Source: Candidatus Stahliibacteriota bacterium
GTDB lineage: Bacteria > Hydrothermota > Tepidihabitantia > SM23-42
DNA length: 48,652 bases
Assembly (NCBI GenBank): GCA_030602565.1
Contig: JAUVZL010000015.1
Location: 1 to 48,652 of the forward strand
Direction: 5' to 3'
Shown here: in pieces, positions 37,022 to 46,819 of the stretch
How the letters are laid out: every line of letters begins with the position of its first letter
Position numbering within the stretch: position 1 is the first letter of the stretch
Program-made: the position numbers and the translations under genes
The notes under the pieces: model-generated
Databases searched by the model: none
Told to the model about the DNA's origin: nothing
Seen by the model: only the letters and a program-made list of their open reading frames with translations

Positions 37022-38263
37022 TTACGTCCCCATTTTCCAGGAAGCCAAATATCGTTTTTGCTCAGGTGTCAGCTTATCAATTCTAATGGACATTGATTTG
37101 AGTTTAAATTTGGCAATCCTTTCATCTATTTTCAAGGGAAGCTGATAAACTCGGTTCTTTAGTCTGGGATTGTTCAATATGTACTCTACAGCCAATGCCT
37201 GGTTGGCAAATGACATATCCATAACCATTGCCGGATGTCCTTCAGCTGCAGCGAGGTTAACCAACCTTCCCTGTGCTAGTATATAAATATGTCGACCATT
37301 TCTGATCGTATGTTCTTCACAAAAATCTCTGATCACTCTTTTTTTCTTGGTGATCTTTGCCAAACCCTGTTTATCAATCTCAACGTCGAAGTGACCGGAA
37401 TTACCAATAATCGCGCCATCTTTCATTTTTTGCATATGTTCTTTTCTGATTACATTAATATCACCAGTAACCGTAATGAACACATCGCCGATTTTTGCGG
37501 CGTCAGCCATGGGCATAACCATGTAACCATCCATGCGTGCCTCAAGCGCTTTGACCGGATCCACTTCGGTCACGATAACCTGAGCACCATGTCCCTTTGC
37601 CCTCATCGCCAAACCTTTACCGCACCAACCATATCCGGCAACGACAAAATTACTACCACTGATTAGAATATTTGTCGCCCTCAAAATACCATCAATGGTT
37701 GATTGTCCAGTGCCGTAACGATTATCAAAAAGATGTTTGGTCAATGAATCATTTACCGCGACTATAGGAAAATTAAGTACCTTATCACGCTCCATCTGTT
37801 TCAATCTTATTACACCGGTGGTTGTTTCTTCAGTACCGCCAAGAACCCCTTTTATTCTCTTTTTGTGTACTGTTGAGATAAGGTCAGCACCGTCATCTAT
37901 TAGAACTTCTGGCTTATTTTCAAGCACCCGGTCCATATTCTCGTAGTAAGCCTTGCGTGACTCACCACGGCGCGCGAAGACACCGAAACCATCCTTGGCA
38001 AGAGCAGCAGCCACGTAGTCTTGGGTCGATAAAGGGTTAGAAGCACTCAGAAAAACTTCAGCGCCACCAGCCTTTAACGTACGCATCAGGTTCGCGGTTT
38101 CTGTAGTTACGTGCAAACAACAACCTATACGGTAGTTTCTCAAGGGCTTTTCTTTCTTAAATCTCTGCCTGATCAGTCTGAGTACAGGCATCTTGGATTC
38201 TGCCCAATAAATCTTTTTGTTTCCTTCTAAAGCGAGTTTAATATCTTTGATGTTAAACTTCAT
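37022..38263 (-). CDS. ahcY: Adenosylhomocysteinase
   Basis: 413 aa, the shorter form seen in thermophiles and many anaerobes. It shows [45 protein letters not shown] with the active-site Lys and Asp-Asn-rich segment, the NAD motif [18 protein letters not shown], and the C-terminal [16 protein letters not shown]. It hydrolyses S-adenosylhomocysteine to adenosine and homocysteine. It starts 14 bp after metK with GTAGGAGG upstream, so the operon makes SAM and removes its by-product. Confidence 0.94.
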
Positions 38264-38277
38264 TTTCCTCCTACTAA

Positions 38278-39426
38278 TTATTTAATGCCGGCTTCACGTT
38301 TTATCGCATCCGCCATGTCACAGACTTCCCAGGTAAAACCTTGTTCTTCACGACCAAAATGTCCGTAACAAGCAGTGCGTCTGTATATTGGTCTACGTAG
38401 TTTCAGTTTGTCGATGATACCCTGTGGTGTAAAATCAAAGAATTTTTTGAGGATTGCCACGATCTTCGAATCCTCTATTTTTGCTGTACCAAATGTCTCA
38501 ACCGCAATCGACGTTGGCTCAGCCACTCCTATAGCGTAAGAGAGTGCTACCTCAATCTTTTTACAGACACCTGAGGCAACGAGGTTCTTCGCTACATACC
38601 TAGCCATATAGGATGCTGAACGATCAACTTTTGTTGGGTCTTTGCCGGAAAAACAACCACCACCATGATGAGCAATGCCACCGTAAGTGTCAACAATGAT
38701 CTTCCTGCCGGTTAAACCAGTATCACCCTGAGGTCCGCCGATAACAAATCGACCAGTGGGGTTTATTAGGATTTTGGTTCGGTCATCAATCAACTCACTG
38801 GGCACAACCTCTTGAATTACCAACTTCTTAATGTCCTCGTGAATTTTTTCGTTGCTGACATCAACATGGTGCTGTGCAGAGATAAGTATCGTATCCACTC
38901 GTAATGGTTTTCCTTCATTATTGTACTCAATCGTAACCTGGGTTTTTCCGTCAGGATGTAGGTAATTGACAACATTAACTTTTCTTATTTCTGCAAGCCG
39001 CCGGACCAAACCATGGGCGAGCATTATAGGCATTGGCATGAGCTCAGGCGTTTCATCCGTTGCAAAACCGTACATCATCCCTTGATCACCTGCCCCGCCA
39101 ATATTAACGCCCATCGCAATATCGCTCGATTGTCCTTGAATTGCCGATATGACAGCACAAGTTTCTGCATCAATACCCATATCTGCATCAGTATAACCAA
39201 TTTCATATAACAACGAACGTACAATCTCGGCAAACTCAACATAACATTCGGTTGATATCTCACCCGACACAACAATCAATCCTCTGGTTGCCAAGACTTC
39301 TACGGCAACCCGGCCAAATGGATCTTTTTCCAAAACTGCATCCAGGATGGCATCTGACACCTGGTCACATATTTTGTCAGGATGTCCTTCAGTAACTGAT
39401 TCAGAAGTTATGAAATAATTAGCCAT
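38278..39426 (-). CDS. metK: S-adenosylmethionine synthetase
   Basis: 382 aa with [23 protein letters not shown] (ATP/Met site), [15 protein letters not shown], and the [20 protein letters not shown]-loop-like motif. All are canonical MetK segments. It forms SAM from methionine and ATP. The start ATG follows AAAAGGAGG. A divergent promoter region of about 115 bp separates it from the TonB-dependent receptor gene. Confidence 0.97.
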
Positions 39427-39542: not shown

Positions 39543-42119
39543 ATGGCCAATTTGCTATTTGCATTACTTATGATAAGCGGCATCAGCGGTAAGATCCAGG
39601 GGATTGTCAAAGACGAGGTGACAAGAGAACCCATACCTTACGCTGATGTAATTATCCTTAATACTGATATAGGTACTGCGACCGACGATAATGGACGTTT
39701 TTATATTCTCAATGTGCCGCCTGGTACTTACACAATTGAGGTATCTTATATAGGTTTTCAGTCAAAGCGTATCGAGAACGTACTCGTGGAAGTCGATCAA
39801 ACCGCACGTCTGGATATCACACTAAAGCAGACAACCATTGAAATACCGCCCATAACTGTAACCAGTGAAATACCGGTGGTCAAGAAAGACATGGTCGGCA
39901 CAACCTATATAATAAGGAAGACTGAATTACCCCACCTGCCCATTGATTATGCAACCGACCTCGTTGCTTTCCAACCGGGGGTAGCTCGTTCTGACACAGC
40001 AATATACGTCCGCGGTGGTCGGGCAACTGAGGTTCAGTATATGATTGATAATGTCCCGATTGTCGATCCCCAAACCGGAGATCTGGCAATTAGTGTTTCA
40101 AAAGGGATCGTTGACGAAATCATCTTTTTGCCTGGTGGTTTTGATGCAGAATACGGTCGCGCCATGTCAGGCGTAATCAATCTTATCACCGCATTCCCTA
40201 AAAATAAGCTGCACGCAAAAACATATGCAAAAACTGAAAAGATTATGCCTTTTTATTATGATTTTGGCTATGAAAATTATCTTGCTTCAATCCATCTTCC
40301 AATATCAAGACGATTTAAAGGAGTGATTTCACTCGACATGATGCATACTGATGACTGGGATCCAAAACTCTATATTCTACCGCATAAGCAACGGGACGAT
40401 TATTCATTATATGGCAAATGGCTCTTCGCACCGTCTGGCAAACTGAAATTTGGTATAAGCGGTGCGTTATCACGGACCCAATTCGACCGGTATAATTCAG
40501 AATGGAAATTCAATCTGGATAATTACCGTTCCGACATAAGAAAGGGCAACCTGCAGTCTTTTAGTATCAGCTATTTACCAAACACACGTCATCTTTTCAA
40601 CCTGACCCTAAGCAGGTTGTATACACAAAGGACATATGGGGTGCGCGAACCAGGGATATATGGCCGTTTTGACAACATTCTATTTCGCGACTACGAAACA
40701 CTCCAGTGGCCTCACGGTGGGATTAATAACCCCTTTGGTGCAAGTTACTGGGCAATACTATGCGAAGGCGATTATTCTGAGTATCAGAACAAGACTTCTG
40801 AGATAATGAGAGCTAATTTCAGTGCTCATCTGCAGGTCCACGAGTATCATGAGATTAAAACTGGCTTTGAATACACTGATCAGGTCTTTGATAATTTCTC
40901 GTATTTTATCAGTGATGCAGTGTATCAGCTTATCGATGAATACCAGTATCAACCCAATGAATATGTATTGTATCTACAAGATAATATTGATTTTAAAGGA
41001 TTGTACGCTAAGGTTGGTTGTCGGATCGATTACTTTGAAAAAGACCCGAATGCTATGATCGAAACCGACATATCCGGTGATACCATAACATATACGGTCA
41101 ACTATCAAGGCCCAATAATTGTCGTATCACCCCGTCTGGGTTTTTCTTTGCTAGTAACCGACAAATTTCTCTTAAGAGCCAATATTGGAAGGTATGTCCA
41201 ACCGCCGCTGCGCGATTATCAGTACGGCTACTATAGTCTGTTGCCTTTACCATCGTACCTTAACCCACCTATTGGCAACCCCACGCTTGGTCCAGAAAAA
41301 ACGATTAGCTATGAGATAGGTCTTCAGGGTGAAATACGTCCGGATTTAAACACCACAATCAATACTTTTTATAAAGATGTCTCCGACCTCACTGGAACAC
41401 GTTATATACCAGCATTACCAGCTGGTTATCACATGTACTTCAATATTGAATATGCAAACATCAAAGGGGTAGAGGCGATTGTGGAATTCGCAAAACCGCT
41501 ATTTACCGGCAAAATTTCTTATACACTATCCTGGGCACGCGGTACAAGTTCCTACGCATTTGAATATGCTGATACAACCATCACCCAACCAGCTGAAGAG
41601 TACGACCTTGATTTTGACCAGCGTCACAGAATATTCATACAGGGTATGGTAAGCCTTCCTCTAAAAACGCGATTGTACGTTTTCGGTTATTTGGGTAATG
41701 GTTTTCCCTATACACCACCTGGGCCTGAAGGAAAATATGAGGAAAGAAATATTGAACAACTCACATTTCAAAGACAGATTGATTGTGTACTATCAAAATC
41801 GTTGTCCATGGAACCGCTTAGCCTTACAATGGATTTTGAAATAATGAACCTCCTTGATTATCGGTATGAAAGCGCTGCACATTTCCCAGTAATCCCCTTA
41901 TCAATAATACATAAGGAAGACTTTGAACATGATCCACCCTATATAGACATTCATAATGCCTACTATCACCCGGCTGCAGACATGAACCATGATGGAATTA
42001 TCACACCTGAAGAAGAATATTTGTCTTTCCGGGGGCTAATTGAGGCAACCGATGATTGGGTTAATGCCTATACATCGCCGAGGAGGGCAAGATTAGGCAT
42101 AAGCTTATCTTTCAATTAA
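39543..42119 (+). CDS. TonB-dependent outer-membrane receptor with carboxypeptidase-regulatory-like domain
   Basis: A signal sequence of about 16 residues leads into a carboxypeptidase D regulatory-like domain (about 18-100, GIVKDEVTREPIPYADVIIL... GRFYILNVPPGTYTIEVSYIGF). The plug domain follows (about 110-215, YVRGGRATEVQYMIDNVPI and GGFDAEYGRAMSGVINLITAF), then the barrel to residue 858, ending in the aromatic-terminated strand RARLGISLSFN. Near residues 817-830 DMNHDGIITPEEEY matches an EF-hand calcium loop, here in a late extracellular loop. It imports an unknown ligand. A lipoprotein gene follows 10 bp downstream and is probably its partner. Confidence 0.9.
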   Translation: MANLLFALLMISGISGKIQGIVKDEVTREPIPYADVIILNTDIGTATDDNGRFYILNVPPGTYTIEVSYIGFQSKRIENVLVEVDQTARLDITLKQTTIEIPPITVTSEIPVVKKDMVGTTYIIRKTELPHLPIDYATDLVAFQPGVARSDTAIYVRGGRATEVQYMIDNVPIVDPQTGDLAISVSKGIVDEIIFLPGGFDAEYGRAMSGVINLITAFPKNKLHAKTYAKTEKIMPFYYDFGYENYLASIHLPISRRFKGVISLDMMHTDDWDPKLYILPHKQRDDYSLYGKWLFAPSGKLKFGISGALSRTQFDRYNSEWKFNLDNYRSDIRKGNLQSFSISYLPNTRHLFNLTLSRLYTQRTYGVREPGIYGRFDNILFRDYETLQWPHGGINNPFGASYWAILCEGDYSEYQNKTSEIMRANFSAHLQVHEYHEIKTGFEYTDQVFDNFSYFISDAVYQLIDEYQYQPNEYVLYLQDNIDFKGLYAKVGCRIDYFEKDPNAMIETDISGDTITYTVNYQGPIIVVSPRLGFSLLVTDKFLLRANIGRYVQPPLRDYQYGYYSLLPLPSYLNPPIGNPTLGPEKTISYEIGLQGEIRPDLNTTINTFYKDVSDLTGTRYIPALPAGYHMYFNIEYANIKGVEAIVEFAKPLFTGKISYTLSWARGTSSYAFEYADTTITQPAEEYDLDFDQRHRIFIQGMVSLPLKTRLYVFGYLGNGFPYTPPGPEGKYEERNIEQLTFQRQIDCVLSKSLSMEPLSLTMDFEIMNLLDYRYESAAHFPVIPLSIIHKEDFEHDPPYIDIHNAYYHPAADMNHDGIITPEEEYLSFRGLIEATDDWVNAYTSPRRARLGISLSFN

Positions 42120-42129
42120 GGAGAATATT

Positions 42130-42564
42130 ATGAAAGTATTTAAGACGATATTAAAGACACTTCTGCTAATCGTCGGTCTCGCAATGTTTTCAAGTCTGCA
42201 AACGGGTTGTAAAGACCCGGACGAATATGCGCCCTACCAGGATTCATTGATATCGCCACCTGCCGCACCCCAACTCTTAAACCCTCCGGATGATACCGGT
42301 TGGGTTTATATAGAGGCTCTAGGACCAGTCATTGTTGATTTTGAATGGACACCTGCTCAAGGTGCAGAGTACTATGAGCTCCACCTTTATGCTGACACAA
42401 CATACATTGATCCAGTAACGTATAAAGTTTCAGATAATGCTGTTACCATCGCCTTTTTACCAAGGCGTGTATACTGGCGCGTGAGAGCATCAAGTTCAAG
42501 ATGGACTTGGTTTACTGATTGGTCAGAAATTCGGTATTTCAGAGTCTGGTGGCCTGTTGAATAA
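42130..42564 (+). CDS. Lipoprotein with fibronectin-III-like fold
   Basis: A signal peptide of about 26 residues ends in the lipobox-like LQTGC, so Cys27 would be lipidated. The rest contains PPAAPQLLNPPDDTGW and VDFEWTPAQGAEYYELHLYAD, then VYWRVRAS and WSEIRYFRV, the usual pattern of a single Fn3-like repeat in periplasmic or surface proteins. 144 aa. It is read right after the TonB-dependent receptor and may help it bind its ligand. I cannot say which ligand. Confidence 0.8.
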   Translation: MKVFKTILKTLLLIVGLAMFSSLQTGCKDPDEYAPYQDSLISPPAAPQLLNPPDDTGWVYIEALGPVIVDFEWTPAQGAEYYELHLYADTTYIDPVTYKVSDNAVTIAFLPRRVYWRVRASSSRWTWFTDWSEIRYFRVWWPVE

Positions 42565-43426
42565 CATATTTGCTAATCTAAAAGCAGCCGAACCAGTATT
42601 CTTGAGAAATCTGAAAATCTACCCTATCAAAGGAGACAATGGCAACGGTTTTACACTAACGACGATTGAAGAAGTGATCAATGCTGGAGACGCAGAATTC
42701 CGTGAACTCGATACACCAGACGTTAATGAAATACTCTTCGTAAACCGCGGGAACAGCCCGGTTTTAATGCTCGACGGTGATGAGATCACAGGTGCTTTGC
42801 AAAATCGCATAATCTCGAGATCAAATATTGCTGAACCCAATTCAACTCATCGGATTTCTGTAATATGTGCTGAAGAAAACAGATGGGATGAAATCGGTGG
42901 GTTTAAAACAGGACATTGTTCTTATCCAGGTTTGCGCGCCATGCTCACGAAAAGCCGACAAACAAGAGCTGATATACAAAAAGCAATCTGGGAAGAAATA
43001 CAACGTAAAATGACCGTTACTAAAACTCGTTCGGCAACCTCGTCAATGCACGATATCTTCGAAAATCTTGCAGAAGAAATCAACCGGTATATTGAAGATT
43101 TCCAGAGTCTGAATCATAATACTATCGGTCTTATCGGCACGACTGGTAACCGTATCCTTGGTTGTGATATATTCCAGAACCCAAAGATCTATCAAAAATG
43201 CGAGAAGAAACTTGTTAGAAGCTATGCTCTGGATGCCATTGAATATCTGCATAAAGGAAATGGTCAACCCAATGTGGAGAAATTCTTGACCGCGACTCTC
43301 GCCGCACTCAACAAAAGGAAATCGAGGAGAAAAACCCAGCATATCACAATCAAAGGTGACGGCTTATTAGGACAAGCATTTGTATATCAAGATAATTTTG
43401 TCCATGTCTCTGCTTTCCCGGTATAA
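42557..43426 (+). CDS. ARPP-1-like domain protein, 289 aa
   Basis: The order MNNIFANLKAAEPVFLRNLKIYPI, then EILFVNRGNSPVLMLDGDEITGALQNRI, HRISVICAEENRW and the C-terminal LGQAFVYQDNFVHVSAF matches the ARPP-1 domain family known from ADP-ribosylation-linked gene contexts in Bacteria. TTG is the apparent start (42557), overlapping the lipoprotein gene by 8 bp; no ATG lies near it, and the next Met is at residue 70. No transmembrane segment. Its biochemical role is not known to me; it is possibly regulatory or stress-related. Confidence 0.65.
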   Translation: MNNIFANLKAAEPVFLRNLKIYPIKGDNGNGFTLTTIEEVINAGDAEFRELDTPDVNEILFVNRGNSPVLMLDGDEITGALQNRIISRSNIAEPNSTHRISVICAEENRWDEIGGFKTGHCSYPGLRAMLTKSRQTRADIQKAIWEEIQRKMTVTKTRSATSSMHDIFENLAEEINRYIEDFQSLNHNTIGLIGTTGNRILGCDIFQNPKIYQKCEKKLVRSYALDAIEYLHKGNGQPNVEKFLTATLAALNKRKSRRKTQHITIKGDGLLGQAFVYQDNFVHVSAFPV

Positions 43427-43482
43427 AATTGTTCGAATCGTTGATCTCAATTATCGGTTTTGACGCTGGACAACGCCTATTT

Positions 43483-43558
43483 CTTTCCGGAGTGCGTCAG
43501 CCTATCCTATTCCTTTCCGGAGTGCGTCAGCTTGCTGACGCTAGACAATGCAATAGCA
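43483..43558. repeat. REP cluster, left copy flanking the transposase
   Basis: 76 bp identical to 44165-44240. Within it TTTCCGGAGTGCGTCAGC occurs twice, 30 bp apart, and the second forms a GCGTCAGC/GCTGACGC hairpin followed by ATGCAATAGCA. Confidence 0.85.
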
Positions 43559-43573
43559 TTACATAACAAGGCT

Positions 43574-44104
43574 ATGCTAAAACAATACAAACATAACCCA
43601 CCCCATCTATTCATGGATAACACATATTACTTTATAACTTCCAGCACGTTATATAAGAAAAAGTTATTCGCTACTGAGAAGTCGAGATTAGATTTATCAA
43701 ATATCATCAAAGATATCCTGACTTCTTATGATTATAAATTGATTGGTTGGGTAGTTCTTTCTAATCACTACCATCTTTTGTGCAAATCAAAAATCGGAGA
43801 ATTCATCTCCGGAATTCTACGCAAAATTCACAGTAAAAGTGCAATACGGATAAATAAATCAACGAATACATCGAGGAAGGTTTGGTTTAATTATTGGGAC
43901 AAATGTATAAGAAACGAGGAATCCCTCTATAGCCATCTGAATTACATCCATCTTAATCCAGTAAAACACGGTTTTGTTACACAACCGCAAGAATACGGAT
44001 TCTCGAGTTATAATGAGTACCTAATAGCAAAAGGTGAAGATTGGTTATTAAATATGTTCACAAAATATCCAGTTATCGATTTTATGAAAAATGATGATTT
44101 CTGA
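43574..44104 (+). CDS. REP-associated tyrosine transposase (RAYT), complete
   Basis: A 176-aa Y1-type transposase: LFMDNTYYFITSSTLYKKKLF at the start, the HUH motif in VLSNHYHLLCKS, and the nucleophile region ESLYSHLNYIHLNPVKHG. Nothing is visibly missing, so it may be active. The ATG at 43574 with AAGG upstream is chosen; longer frames read through the REP hairpins. Identical REP clusters on both sides are its likely substrate, i.e. a REPtron. It is unlike the transposases at 18-380 and 7474-7593, so at least two RAYT types have acted in this genome. Confidence 0.88.
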   Translation: MLKQYKHNPPHLFMDNTYYFITSSTLYKKKLFATEKSRLDLSNIIKDILTSYDYKLIGWVVLSNHYHLLCKSKIGEFISGILRKIHSKSAIRINKSTNTSRKVWFNYWDKCIRNEESLYSHLNYIHLNPVKHGFVTQPQEYGFSSYNEYLIAKGEDWLLNMFTKYPVIDFMKNDDF

Positions 44105-44164
44105 CAACGCAATAGCAAGCTATTGCACTCCATATCCCCGCTTAACATACGATCTCGCCCTTCC

Positions 44165-44254
44165 CTTTCCGGAGTGCGTCAGCCTATCCTATTCCTTTCC
44201 GGAGTGCGTCAGCTTGCTGACGCTAGACAATGCAATAGCAAGCTATTGCACTCC
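44165..44254. repeat. REP cluster, right copy flanking the transposase
   Basis: Its first 76 bp equal 43483-43558. It goes on with GCAATAGCAAGCTATTGC, a full hairpin that also occurs alone at 44109-44126. It abuts the start of the kinase-helicase gene. Confidence 0.85.
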
Positions 44255-44281
44255 TATAAGCTCCTGTACTCTATTATAATT

Positions 44282-46819
44282 ATGCTTTTAAAAAAACTCG
44301 GCAAGTACGAAATCCTCGATTGGCTTGGTGGCGGTAGGTTTGGTGACGTATTTTTAGCACACGATACTATACTCGATAAAGATTTCGCCTTAAAAATATC
44401 CCGAATGAGAAAAGAAGAGATTGCTATGCTCAAAGATGAAGCAAAGCTACTTGCATCACTCGACCATCCTAATGTCGTTAGATTTTATAATATCGATTTT
44501 GTCGACAGCAAGTTTGTTCTGGTTATGGAGTATATAAAGGGGAGCACTTTAAGAGACATAATTACGGACGAGGGGGTCGGTATTGAAAAAACCGTAAGCA
44601 TTACTGCTCAAATCCTCGATGCCATCCGCTATGCTCATAAGAATGGTGTATTGCACCGTGATCTAAAACCCGAAAATATCTTGCTCACTCAAAAAGATCA
44701 GAAAAAGTTTGTTAAGGTTGCTGATTTTGGTCTGGCACGCTTTATCCGCGCTGGATCGCTTTCCGCATCAACCGCGGGTACGCCTATTTATATGGCACCT
44801 GAGGTCTGGAAAGGTAGCTATACTGAAAAGAGTGATATCTGGTCCATCGGTACTATTCTCTACGAATTGCTCACTGGCACACCACCTTTTTTAGCTGATA
44901 GCCTTGATGCATTACGCAAAAAAATCGAAAAGACCAATTATCTTATGCCCACTGTATTGCGAACTCAAACACCACAGCACATTGAAGATGCTATATTGAA
45001 ATGTCTCAGTCTAACCCCTGAATCAAGACCCGATGCCAATGAACTCCTGAAAATAATCACAAGAAAAGGTGAGGCGATCAAGGTCGTGAGCAGTATTAAC
45101 CTTCCGGCAAAACAAGCAAAACCCATAAAATTAACCCCGGCACAAGAAGATATCATTGCCCGGGTCGACGGAAATATCCTTTTGCTCGGTCAGGCAGGTT
45201 GTGGAAAAACCACGACATTGACCTATGCCATTGACCGATTGATTGCCAAAGGCATCCCAATATCAAAAATCCTTGTTTGCACATTTACTAATAAAGCAGC
45301 AAATGATATAAAAAGTCGGTTAGCACATCTAACCAGTTTATCTTTGCACGACCTATGGCTCGGCACTTTCCACAAAATTGGCTACCGAATGCTGCGCCGT
45401 GATGCAGAAAGGCTTGACCTCAATGAAAATTTCACAATTGAAGAACCGAAAAGAATCTTTACCAGAATGAAGCTCAAGACCGGCAAGTACCGTACCAATG
45501 CAATCATAAAATTCATTGAGAACCTCAAAGCAAAGGGAGTCACGAGCGATAAATTCAAACCAGAAAATAGTTGGGAAAAATACTGCCACAAGATATATAC
45601 ACAGTACCAGGAACACTTGCGAAAAAACAATATCCTCGACTACAATGATCTCATTCTCTCTGCAATAGAGCTTCTTGAAGAAAATACCGATATAAGAGAA
45701 TATTATAGAACCCTGTTTGATTACATTTTTATCGACGAACTCCAGGATATTAACCATGCCCAGTATCGATTTTTGTCTTTGATCTACAAGGGTAATATAT
45801 TTTTCACCGGTGATGAGGACCAGGCAATATACAGCTGGCGCGGGGCTGACCGAAAACTGATATACCGAGTGCCCCAGGATTTCAAAAATACAAAAACTTA
45901 TAACCTCACCAGAAGTTTTCGCCTACCCCAGGCGATTCTCGAGATCGCGAATAATCTAATGCTGCGACCGAGTACTGTAATCCCCAATACCCAAACCGGC
46001 GACATCATGGTATATGCTGCCAAATCGGAAAAAGATGAGGTTGATTATATTATTAAAGAACTGAAATCGCTGAAAAAAGATGGCTACTGTTTTCAGGACA
46101 TCGCAATACTGTATAGGATGAATTACATATCAATGATTTACGAAGAAGCTCTTATCAAATCACGTATTCCTCATACCCTGATCGGCGGTGCTTCATTTTA
46201 CGAACGCTCTGATATAAAACCAGTGATTGAGTATCTTGAACTCCTTGATCTTTATTCTTCAAAAAAATATCCTGACCCCCCGACGATCAAGGAATTCACT
46301 GCAAGAGCCCAGGCAATTTTCATGGTGAAGAAAATGAGTCTTGAGCGTACCGAGGCTATATTTAGTCACCATATAATGGAACCGGGGATCCTGACACCCA
46401 GCCGCATAATAAAAGAAATTACAGATGTGGCAAAACTTAAGGGCGAAAATATCAACGAACTAATTGCCTTTGCAAGAGGCTATAAGAATTTTGAATTAGC
46501 GAAATTCTTGAGTGAAATCAGGTTGATTCATGCATTAGACCTGGCAGAATGGGGAAAAGATACGGTAAAATTAATGACTGTGCATAGTGCTAAAGGTCTT
46601 GAATTTCCTATTGTTTTCGTGGTTGACCTGATTGAAGATGTCTTTCCCCTCACCAAGAAAATGGCTTCATCCCAGGAGATTGAAGAAGAAAGAAGGCTTT
46701 GTTATGTTGCCCTTACCCGTGCTCAGCGCAAATTATACTTGCTCTATCCCAAGTGGCGCCATGGGCACATTCAACAATCATCACGATTCCTCGTGGATAT
46801 GTTAAAAGCAAAAAGTTAA
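44282..46819 (+). CDS. Serine/threonine kinase fused to a UvrD/PcrA-type helicase, 845 aa
   Basis: Residues 1-265 are a Hanks-type kinase with every key residue: GGGRFGDV loop (16-23), K38 in FALKIS, E53, HRDLKPEN (125-132), DFG (148-150), APE (172-174) and DIWSIG. From about 284 a superfamily 1A helicase begins: the Q motif LTPAQEDII, Walker A GQAGCGKTT (303-311), VCTFTNKAA, Walker B FIDELQD, GDEDQAIYSWRGAD, VKLMTVHSAKGLEFPIVFV and RRLCYVALTRAQ. A ~20-residue linker joins them. The helicase half (~560 aa) is compact but keeps motifs I-VI. The ATG at 44282 starts the kinase; an upstream start at 44123 would translate REP DNA. Kinase control of the helicase, or damage-triggered signalling, is inference. 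Confidence 0.93.
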   Translation: MLLKKLGKYEILDWLGGGRFGDVFLAHDTILDKDFALKISRMRKEEIAMLKDEAKLLASLDHPNVVRFYNIDFVDSKFVLVMEYIKGSTLRDIITDEGVGIEKTVSITAQILDAIRYAHKNGVLHRDLKPENILLTQKDQKKFVKVADFGLARFIRAGSLSASTAGTPIYMAPEVWKGSYTEKSDIWSIGTILYELLTGTPPFLADSLDALRKKIEKTNYLMPTVLRTQTPQHIEDAILKCLSLTPESRPDANELLKIITRKGEAIKVVSSINLPAKQAKPIKLTPAQEDIIARVDGNILLLGQAGCGKTTTLTYAIDRLIAKGIPISKILVCTFTNKAANDIKSRLAHLTSLSLHDLWLGTFHKIGYRMLRRDAERLDLNENFTIEEPKRIFTRMKLKTGKYRTNAIIKFIENLKAKGVTSDKFKPENSWEKYCHKIYTQYQEHLRKNNILDYNDLILSAIELLEENTDIREYYRTLFDYIFIDELQDINHAQYRFLSLIYKGNIFFTGDEDQAIYSWRGADRKLIYRVPQDFKNTKTYNLTRSFRLPQAILEIANNLMLRPSTVIPNTQTGDIMVYAAKSEKDEVDYIIKELKSLKKDGYCFQDIAILYRMNYISMIYEEALIKSRIPHTLIGGASFYERSDIKPVIEYLELLDLYSSKKYPDPPTIKEFTARAQAIFMVKKMSLERTEAIFSHHIMEPGILTPSRIIKEITDVAKLKGENINELIAFARGYKNFELAKFLSEIRLIHALDLAEWGKDTVKLMTVHSAKGLEFPIVFVVDLIEDVFPLTKKMASSQEIEEERRLCYVALTRAQRKLYLLYPKWRHGHIQQSSRFLVDMLKAKS

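Follow-up and report, generated by a model that had tools for sequence, protein, structure and literature searches.

Why would a bacterium place a Hanks-type serine/threonine kinase and a UvrD/PcrA-type DNA helicase on one polypeptide, and what would such a protein do? The question is raised by a gene in a 48,652-nucleotide stretch of DNA from a Candidatus Stahliibacteriota bacterium (the window; contig C53 of a 2.74-Mb genome), and this gene is the sole copy of the fusion in that genome. The gene and its parts are as follows.

44282-46819, + strand: kinase-UvrD fusion gene, 845 aa (open reading frame, Pfam, homologues)
44297-45061, + strand: Hanks Ser/Thr kinase domain, residues 6-260 (K38, E53, D127, D148 and E174 invariant; PknB-like model)
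45062-45130, + strand: flexible linker, residues 261-283 (about 23 residues; low model confidence at 262-280; length conserved, sequence not)
45131-46816, + strand: UvrD/PcrA-type SF1A helicase, residues 284-845 (Pfam, motifs, shortened motif IV-VI region)

The original prediction held that a kinase and a helicase, both intact, are joined in frame, and translation bears this out. The 845-aa frame is free of stops, its start at 44282 (MLLKKLGKYEIL) is backed by homologues of equal length, and Pfam places Pkinase at residues 9-257 (E 5.9e-58), UvrD-helicase at 284-535 (E 3.9e-65) and UvrD_C at 718-822, all far over their cut-offs. The motifs that had been picked out by eye lie at the expected places, both in the kinase (K38, H125-R126-D127, D148-F149-G150 and A172-P173-E174) and in the helicase (Q-motif 284-289, Walker A 303-311, DELQD 485-489, III 510-522, V 767-775 and VI 808-818), and the helicase half has motifs Ia, Ib, IV and IVa as well. 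Pfam finds no sensor domain besides the helicase, and no membrane anchor was recognised. The nearest named records are from Candidatus Stahlbacteria/WOR-3 MAGs (92-95% identity over the full length), and further WOR-3 homologues at 65% and 32-34% identity are also full length. The domain families are already known; the architecture had been called unusual, and the open-access literature searched, which is part of all literature and thereby does not prove absence, holds no description of a kinase-UvrD polypeptide or of its coupling to ARPP-1 (see below), so that both appear new in the sense of not having been found described.

Both halves keep their catalytic residues. In the kinase, the residues that define Hanks-type Ser/Thr kinases, i.e. 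the VAIK Lys (K38), the alpha-C Glu (E53), the HRD Asp (D127), the DFG Asp (D148) and the APE Glu (E174), are identical in 62 of 62 aligned fusions, as are H125, K129, F149, G150, G166, T167, P168 and D185; the kinase motifs are thus conserved among homologues. The HRD Arg (R126) is present in 58 of the 62, the exceptions being the non-RD kinases of one genus (G051-G054), which have HGD. Activation-loop position 161 is Ser/Thr in 75% of the sequences and position 163 in 87%. Judged from the alignment, these features fit an RD kinase that is switched on via loop phosphorylation, a mode that cannot be universal because G051-G054 have HGD and G052 and G054 have lost the activation-loop Ser/Thr. 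In the HGD genus (loci L104, L101, L103 and L100), ARPP-1 is unlinked and the activation mechanism may have changed. The kinase model superposes on the PknB kinase domain with a TM-score of 0.89 (normalised to PknB); the PASTA kinase family NF033483 matches with 218 bits against a cut-off of 450, and there is no PASTA domain.

In the helicase half, K309, D485, E486, R547 and R813 are invariant in a 21-sequence alignment, motifs Q, I, Ia, Ib, II, III, IV, V and VI of UvrD/PcrA-type SF1A enzymes are all present, and the best solved match is the UvrD-DNA complex 2is6. This half therefore shares all motifs, their order and the fold with the PcrA/UvrD/Rep helicases (TIGR01073, SF1A). Unlike them, it carries an N-terminal kinase, forms its own clade, has only 267 residues in the motif IV to VI region compared to 314-322 in nearly all complete PcrAs compared, and reaches 402 bits with the PcrA equivalog TIGR01073, for which the cut-off is 911. 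By these comparisons, the fused helicase is a relative of PcrA, not PcrA itself, and its family membership suggests that it would translocate and unwind in the 3'-to-5' direction.

Pairwise identity falls to about 31% in the kinase and to about 23-24% in the helicase, yet the motifs remain invariant or nearly so, and the catalytic residues of both halves are kept across 62-69 sequences. Between close species, Nei-Gojobori dN/dS ranges over 0.08-0.16 in the kinase and 0.12-0.19 in the helicase, values that indicate purifying selection on both halves. The linker has a dN/dS of ~1 in two comparisons involving few codons; it is 22-33 residues long in all sequences, and across 69 sequences the share of Ser/Thr never exceeds 28% at any of its positions. 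The idea that the helicase is switched by autophosphorylation of its linker is unsupported, given this lack of conserved linker Ser/Thr. In the AF2 model of the whole protein (pTM 0.55; 21 sequences), the linker is disordered with pLDDT <40, and no reliable packing of kinase on helicase is predicted.

How widespread and how old is the fusion? Of the 147 genomes examined from the WOR-3/Stahlbacteria phylum, 63 show the join, namely G101 and the 62 aligned fusions, five of which are cut by contig ends. It is found on independent contigs, several of which are single-contig genomes (e.g. G077, G076, G086 and G088), and these independent assemblies refute an assembly artefact; nor are the halves always separate genes among homologues, as the join is kept throughout these genomes and in two other phyla. 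In the window's own family, the fusion is intact in 21 of 23 genomes, plus one fragment; a C-terminal fragment lies at a contig edge in G092. A wider sample of 390 genomes includes ~243 from other phyla, and just two of these have the fusion: G160, the sole genome examined of its phylum, and G314, in whose phylum five of nine genomes carry it. In total, six genomes outside WOR-3, from two phyla, carry the fusion.

When 24 other UvrD-type helicases are included in a tree, all 62 fused helicases group in a single clade with a support of 1.0, beside the separate PcrA of the same genomes. In the kinase tree with 15 outgroups, no outsider falls inside the fusion kinases, at a support of only 0.235. 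Pairwise identities of kinase and helicase correlate with r=0.93 over 62 genomes, and fused-helicase identities follow those of the genomes' own PcrA with r=0.956 over seven genomes. Because the helicase halves are a single clade and both halves diverge in step, the simplest and likely reading of these trees is one ancient fusion followed by mainly vertical descent; given the support of 0.235 for the kinase half, it is the helicase half, together with the distance correlation, that carries the case for a single origin. A viral origin was rejected, since none of the best 80 viral contigs listed carries both halves as one match.

The most informative clue at this locus, absent from the original prediction, is the gene upstream of the fusion.

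42557-43426, + strand: ARPP-1 (PF20208) gene, 289 aa, cytoplasmic clade B, TTG start as listed (Pfam E 5.8e-63; adjoins the fusion in 43 genomes)

When the neighbouring genes are clustered, a single family, ARPP-1, accompanies the fusion in 36 genomes; it is encoded on the same strand, mostly with an overlap or a few-base gap, and the linkage extends to 43 genomes once G101 and the six outside genomes are counted. The few-base overlaps and gaps suggest that the two genes may be co-transcribed. In G121 and G122, ARPP-1 lies downstream of the fusion instead of upstream, and the adjacency has therefore outlasted a rearrangement. A tree of 83 ARPP-1 sequences separates into clades A and B. Clade A proteins have signal-peptide-like N-terminal segments; none of them is linked to the fusion, and they also occur where it is absent. 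Clade B proteins are without such segments and comprise all linked copies together with the unlinked copies from fusion-bearing genomes. Counting some unlinked copies as clade B via their sister species and not by their own tree position, 61 of the 147 phylum genomes have both clade B and the fusion, three the fusion only, two clade B only and 81 neither (Fisher p 5e-35, a descriptive value that ignores shared ancestry). The corresponding numbers for clade A are 28 with both, 36 with the fusion only, 16 with clade A only and 67 with neither. The two clade-B-only genomes (G021 and G047) are fragmented assemblies whose sister species carry the fusion; of the three fusion genomes without detectable clade-B ARPP-1, two are at least 94% complete. 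In the phylum of G314, all five fusion genomes have an adjacent ARPP-1 and all four fusion-free genomes have no ARPP-1. Thus, the fusion is genetically coupled to ARPP-1. Near 13 readable ARPP-1 loci of other phyla, profiles recognised no kinase or UvrD gene that might represent an unfused ancestor.

The ARPP-1 protein matches PF20208 with 213 bits against a cut-off of 27. C104 and Q82 are invariant in 83 sequences, and these residues together with R84, E106, R109, R127, Q141, W145 and G191 are invariant or nearly so. The protein is confidently modelled (pLDDT 92.4, pTM 0.92), and a fold search with this model returned no PDB match at E<=0.001; because there is no solved relative, its chemistry is a suggestion taken from the literature. 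In PMC9503650 (Aravind group), ARPP domains are described as having residues that are absolutely conserved, a Cys and a Gln among them; they occur with ADP-ribosylglycohydrolases (ARG), rhodanese-phosphatases, the 3'-end-binding HIRAN domain, WYL and PF01522, and an action on ribose moieties is suggested, possibly with covalent sugar cross-links as in SRAP. Like those systems, the protein studied here carries a complete ARPP-1 domain that retains the invariant C104 (Cys) and Q82 (Gln). Neither a kinase nor UvrD is among the partners named in the passages found (PMC9503650). For the fusion-linked ARPP-1 copies, no conserved Ser/Thr confined to them was identified as a phospho-site.

Two further elements separate ARPP-1 from the fusion in the window.

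43460-44104, + strand: IS200/RAYT-like Y1 transposase gene, a recent insertion outside the module (Pfam Y1_Tnp 2.6e-10)
44105-44281, no strand assigned: REP-like palindromic repeats that flank the transposase gene, of the AATAGCAAGCTATTGC and GTCAGCTTGCTGAC types (read from the sequence)

The original prediction spoke of an adjacent REPtron and a recently remodelled start region. A mobile gene and REP-like palindromes do adjoin the fusion; more precisely, the gene is a Y1_Tnp/IS200-like, RAYT-type gene that entered the spacer between ARPP-1 and the fusion, while the fusion itself is untouched and the context of its ATG is unchanged. The transposase occupies this position in two of four species of the genus, i.e. 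this species (G000) and G080, where the spacer is 696-762 bp; in G079 and G081, which are without it, the spacer is 112-139 bp. The wider surroundings of the fusion are housekeeping genes, e.g. ahcY/metK or tsaB/rimI. Further upstream in the window, the opposite strand carries adjacent genes for S-adenosylhomocysteine hydrolase and S-adenosylmethionine synthetase (37022-39426). Many relatives show this arrangement too, and the ahcY/metK pair is conserved housekeeping synteny. A TonB-dependent-receptor-like protein and a small lipoprotein-like protein are encoded upstream of ARPP-1 (39543-42564), and both recur near the fusion in ~20 related genomes.

Based on these data, we tentatively suggest a model, which we consider plausible if a little short of an even chance, in which ARPP-1 and the Hanks kinase tethered to a 3'-to-5' SF1A helicase make up a chromosomal module of two genes that is inherited vertically and serves DNA transactions. 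In this model, where DNA is damaged or stalled, the UvrD part would load on ssDNA or a 3' tail, as expected from its family. Loading on DNA would gather at least two fusion molecules, and their kinases would phosphorylate each other in trans on the Ser/Thr-rich activation loop and switch on. The active kinase may then phosphorylate ARPP-1, other DNA-bound clients or both. At the same time, the motor may expose a substrate for ARPP-1, which is a putative Cys/Gln enzyme with a suggested action on ribose or sugar groups; ARPP-1 would thus be a client or an effector of the kinase. A linker that is disordered in the model yet conserved in length is consistent with the tether. The proposed DNA-stimulated trans-autophosphorylation is modelled on YabT of Bacillus subtilis, a Hanks kinase in which DNA binding triggers trans-autophosphorylation and which targets RecA, SsbA and YabA (PMC6333020). 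The fusion resembles YabT in its PknB-like Hanks kinase, its genome-maintenance setting and, by analogy, probable control by DNA contact (PMC6333020, PMC3708118). However, YabT has a short basic juxtamembrane DNA-binding segment and a transmembrane helix (PMC6333020, PMC3708118), whereas the fusion has a complete SF1A motor as its DNA module, no recognised membrane anchor and the ARPP-1 partner.

Alternatively, the flow of information could be the reverse, with the kinase receiving a cellular, non-DNA signal and phosphorylating the fused helicase or ARPP-1 to switch it on or off. Bacterial Hanks kinases usually sense and regulate, the tether holds the kinase beside the motor, and the helicase has the invariant or near-invariant Ser/Thr residues T310, T766, T812 and S834. 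However, these four lie in or near core motifs, where conservation is expected for catalysis, the only candidate sensor domain is the helicase itself, and the linker is without conserved Ser/Thr; we therefore regard this alternative as unlikely.

A slightly less likely alternative still is anti-phage defence, in which the UvrD-like part would sense phage DNA intermediates, the kinase would trigger abortive shutdown and ARPP-1 would be the effector or an ADP-ribose/sugar processor. The PADLOC models GajB, PD-T4-6 and mad6 match the halves strongly, and ARPP is described in ARG-centred conflict systems (PMC9503650). However, the PADLOC matches reflect generic UvrD and kinase similarity: Gabija GajB and the PD-T4-6/MADS kinases each resemble one half, while the fusion is a single polypeptide in a non-defence neighbourhood, without GajA or MADS partner genes. 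Among the ten neighbours searched, there is no GajA-like OLD/TOPRIM nuclease or other defence gene, and Gabija and other known defence systems were rejected on neighbours and inheritance. Near-universality in the family, divergence in step with PcrA, housekeeping surroundings and slow turnover are unlike a defence island, and no viral match over both halves was found among the best 80 viral contigs listed; the phage sensor of the original prediction is thus weakly supported. Finally, although these genomes are rich in both kinases and UvrD helicases, a chance fusion or artefact without joint function is vanishingly improbable given the join in 63 phylum genomes and six outside, the monophyly of the helicases (support 1.0), the correlation of the halves (r 0.93) and purifying selection on both.

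Returning to the two-gene module, the fusion and its near-constant ARPP-1 partner point to an undescribed DNA-surveillance or repair module. Bacterial DNA-damage signalling is known largely from LexA/RecA, with a few DNA-linked Hanks kinases such as YabT and RqkA. We speculate that the module could be a checkpoint-kinase-like DNA-surveillance system, with a kinase hard-wired to a DNA motor and signalling via ARPP-1 as a new enzyme that acts on sugars of damaged DNA, phylum-deep in WOR-3 and present in two small phyla; in this specific form, we consider the idea rather unlikely. If true, the kinase-helicase and ARPP-1 would be a second, directly testable route from DNA state to protein phosphorylation and would open, for the first time, a DNA-based way into the function of ARPP-1, a domain that is widespread but of obscure biochemistry. 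The two-gene unit is small enough for expression and assay.

ARPP domains also occur in other settings. G000 has two more ARPP-1 paralogues on contigs C41 (L115) and C97 (L116), both of clade A with signal-peptide-like starts, which suggests exported ARPP proteins with a different job. In G250, from another phylum (L282:5673-8310), a cytoplasmic ARPP gene overlaps a NERD/SF1-helicase frame followed by a UvrD_C_2-like frame, whose Pfam match is just under the cut-off; the two frames are possibly one gene broken by a frameshift, and the locus hints at a link between ARPP and SF1 helicases seen independently.
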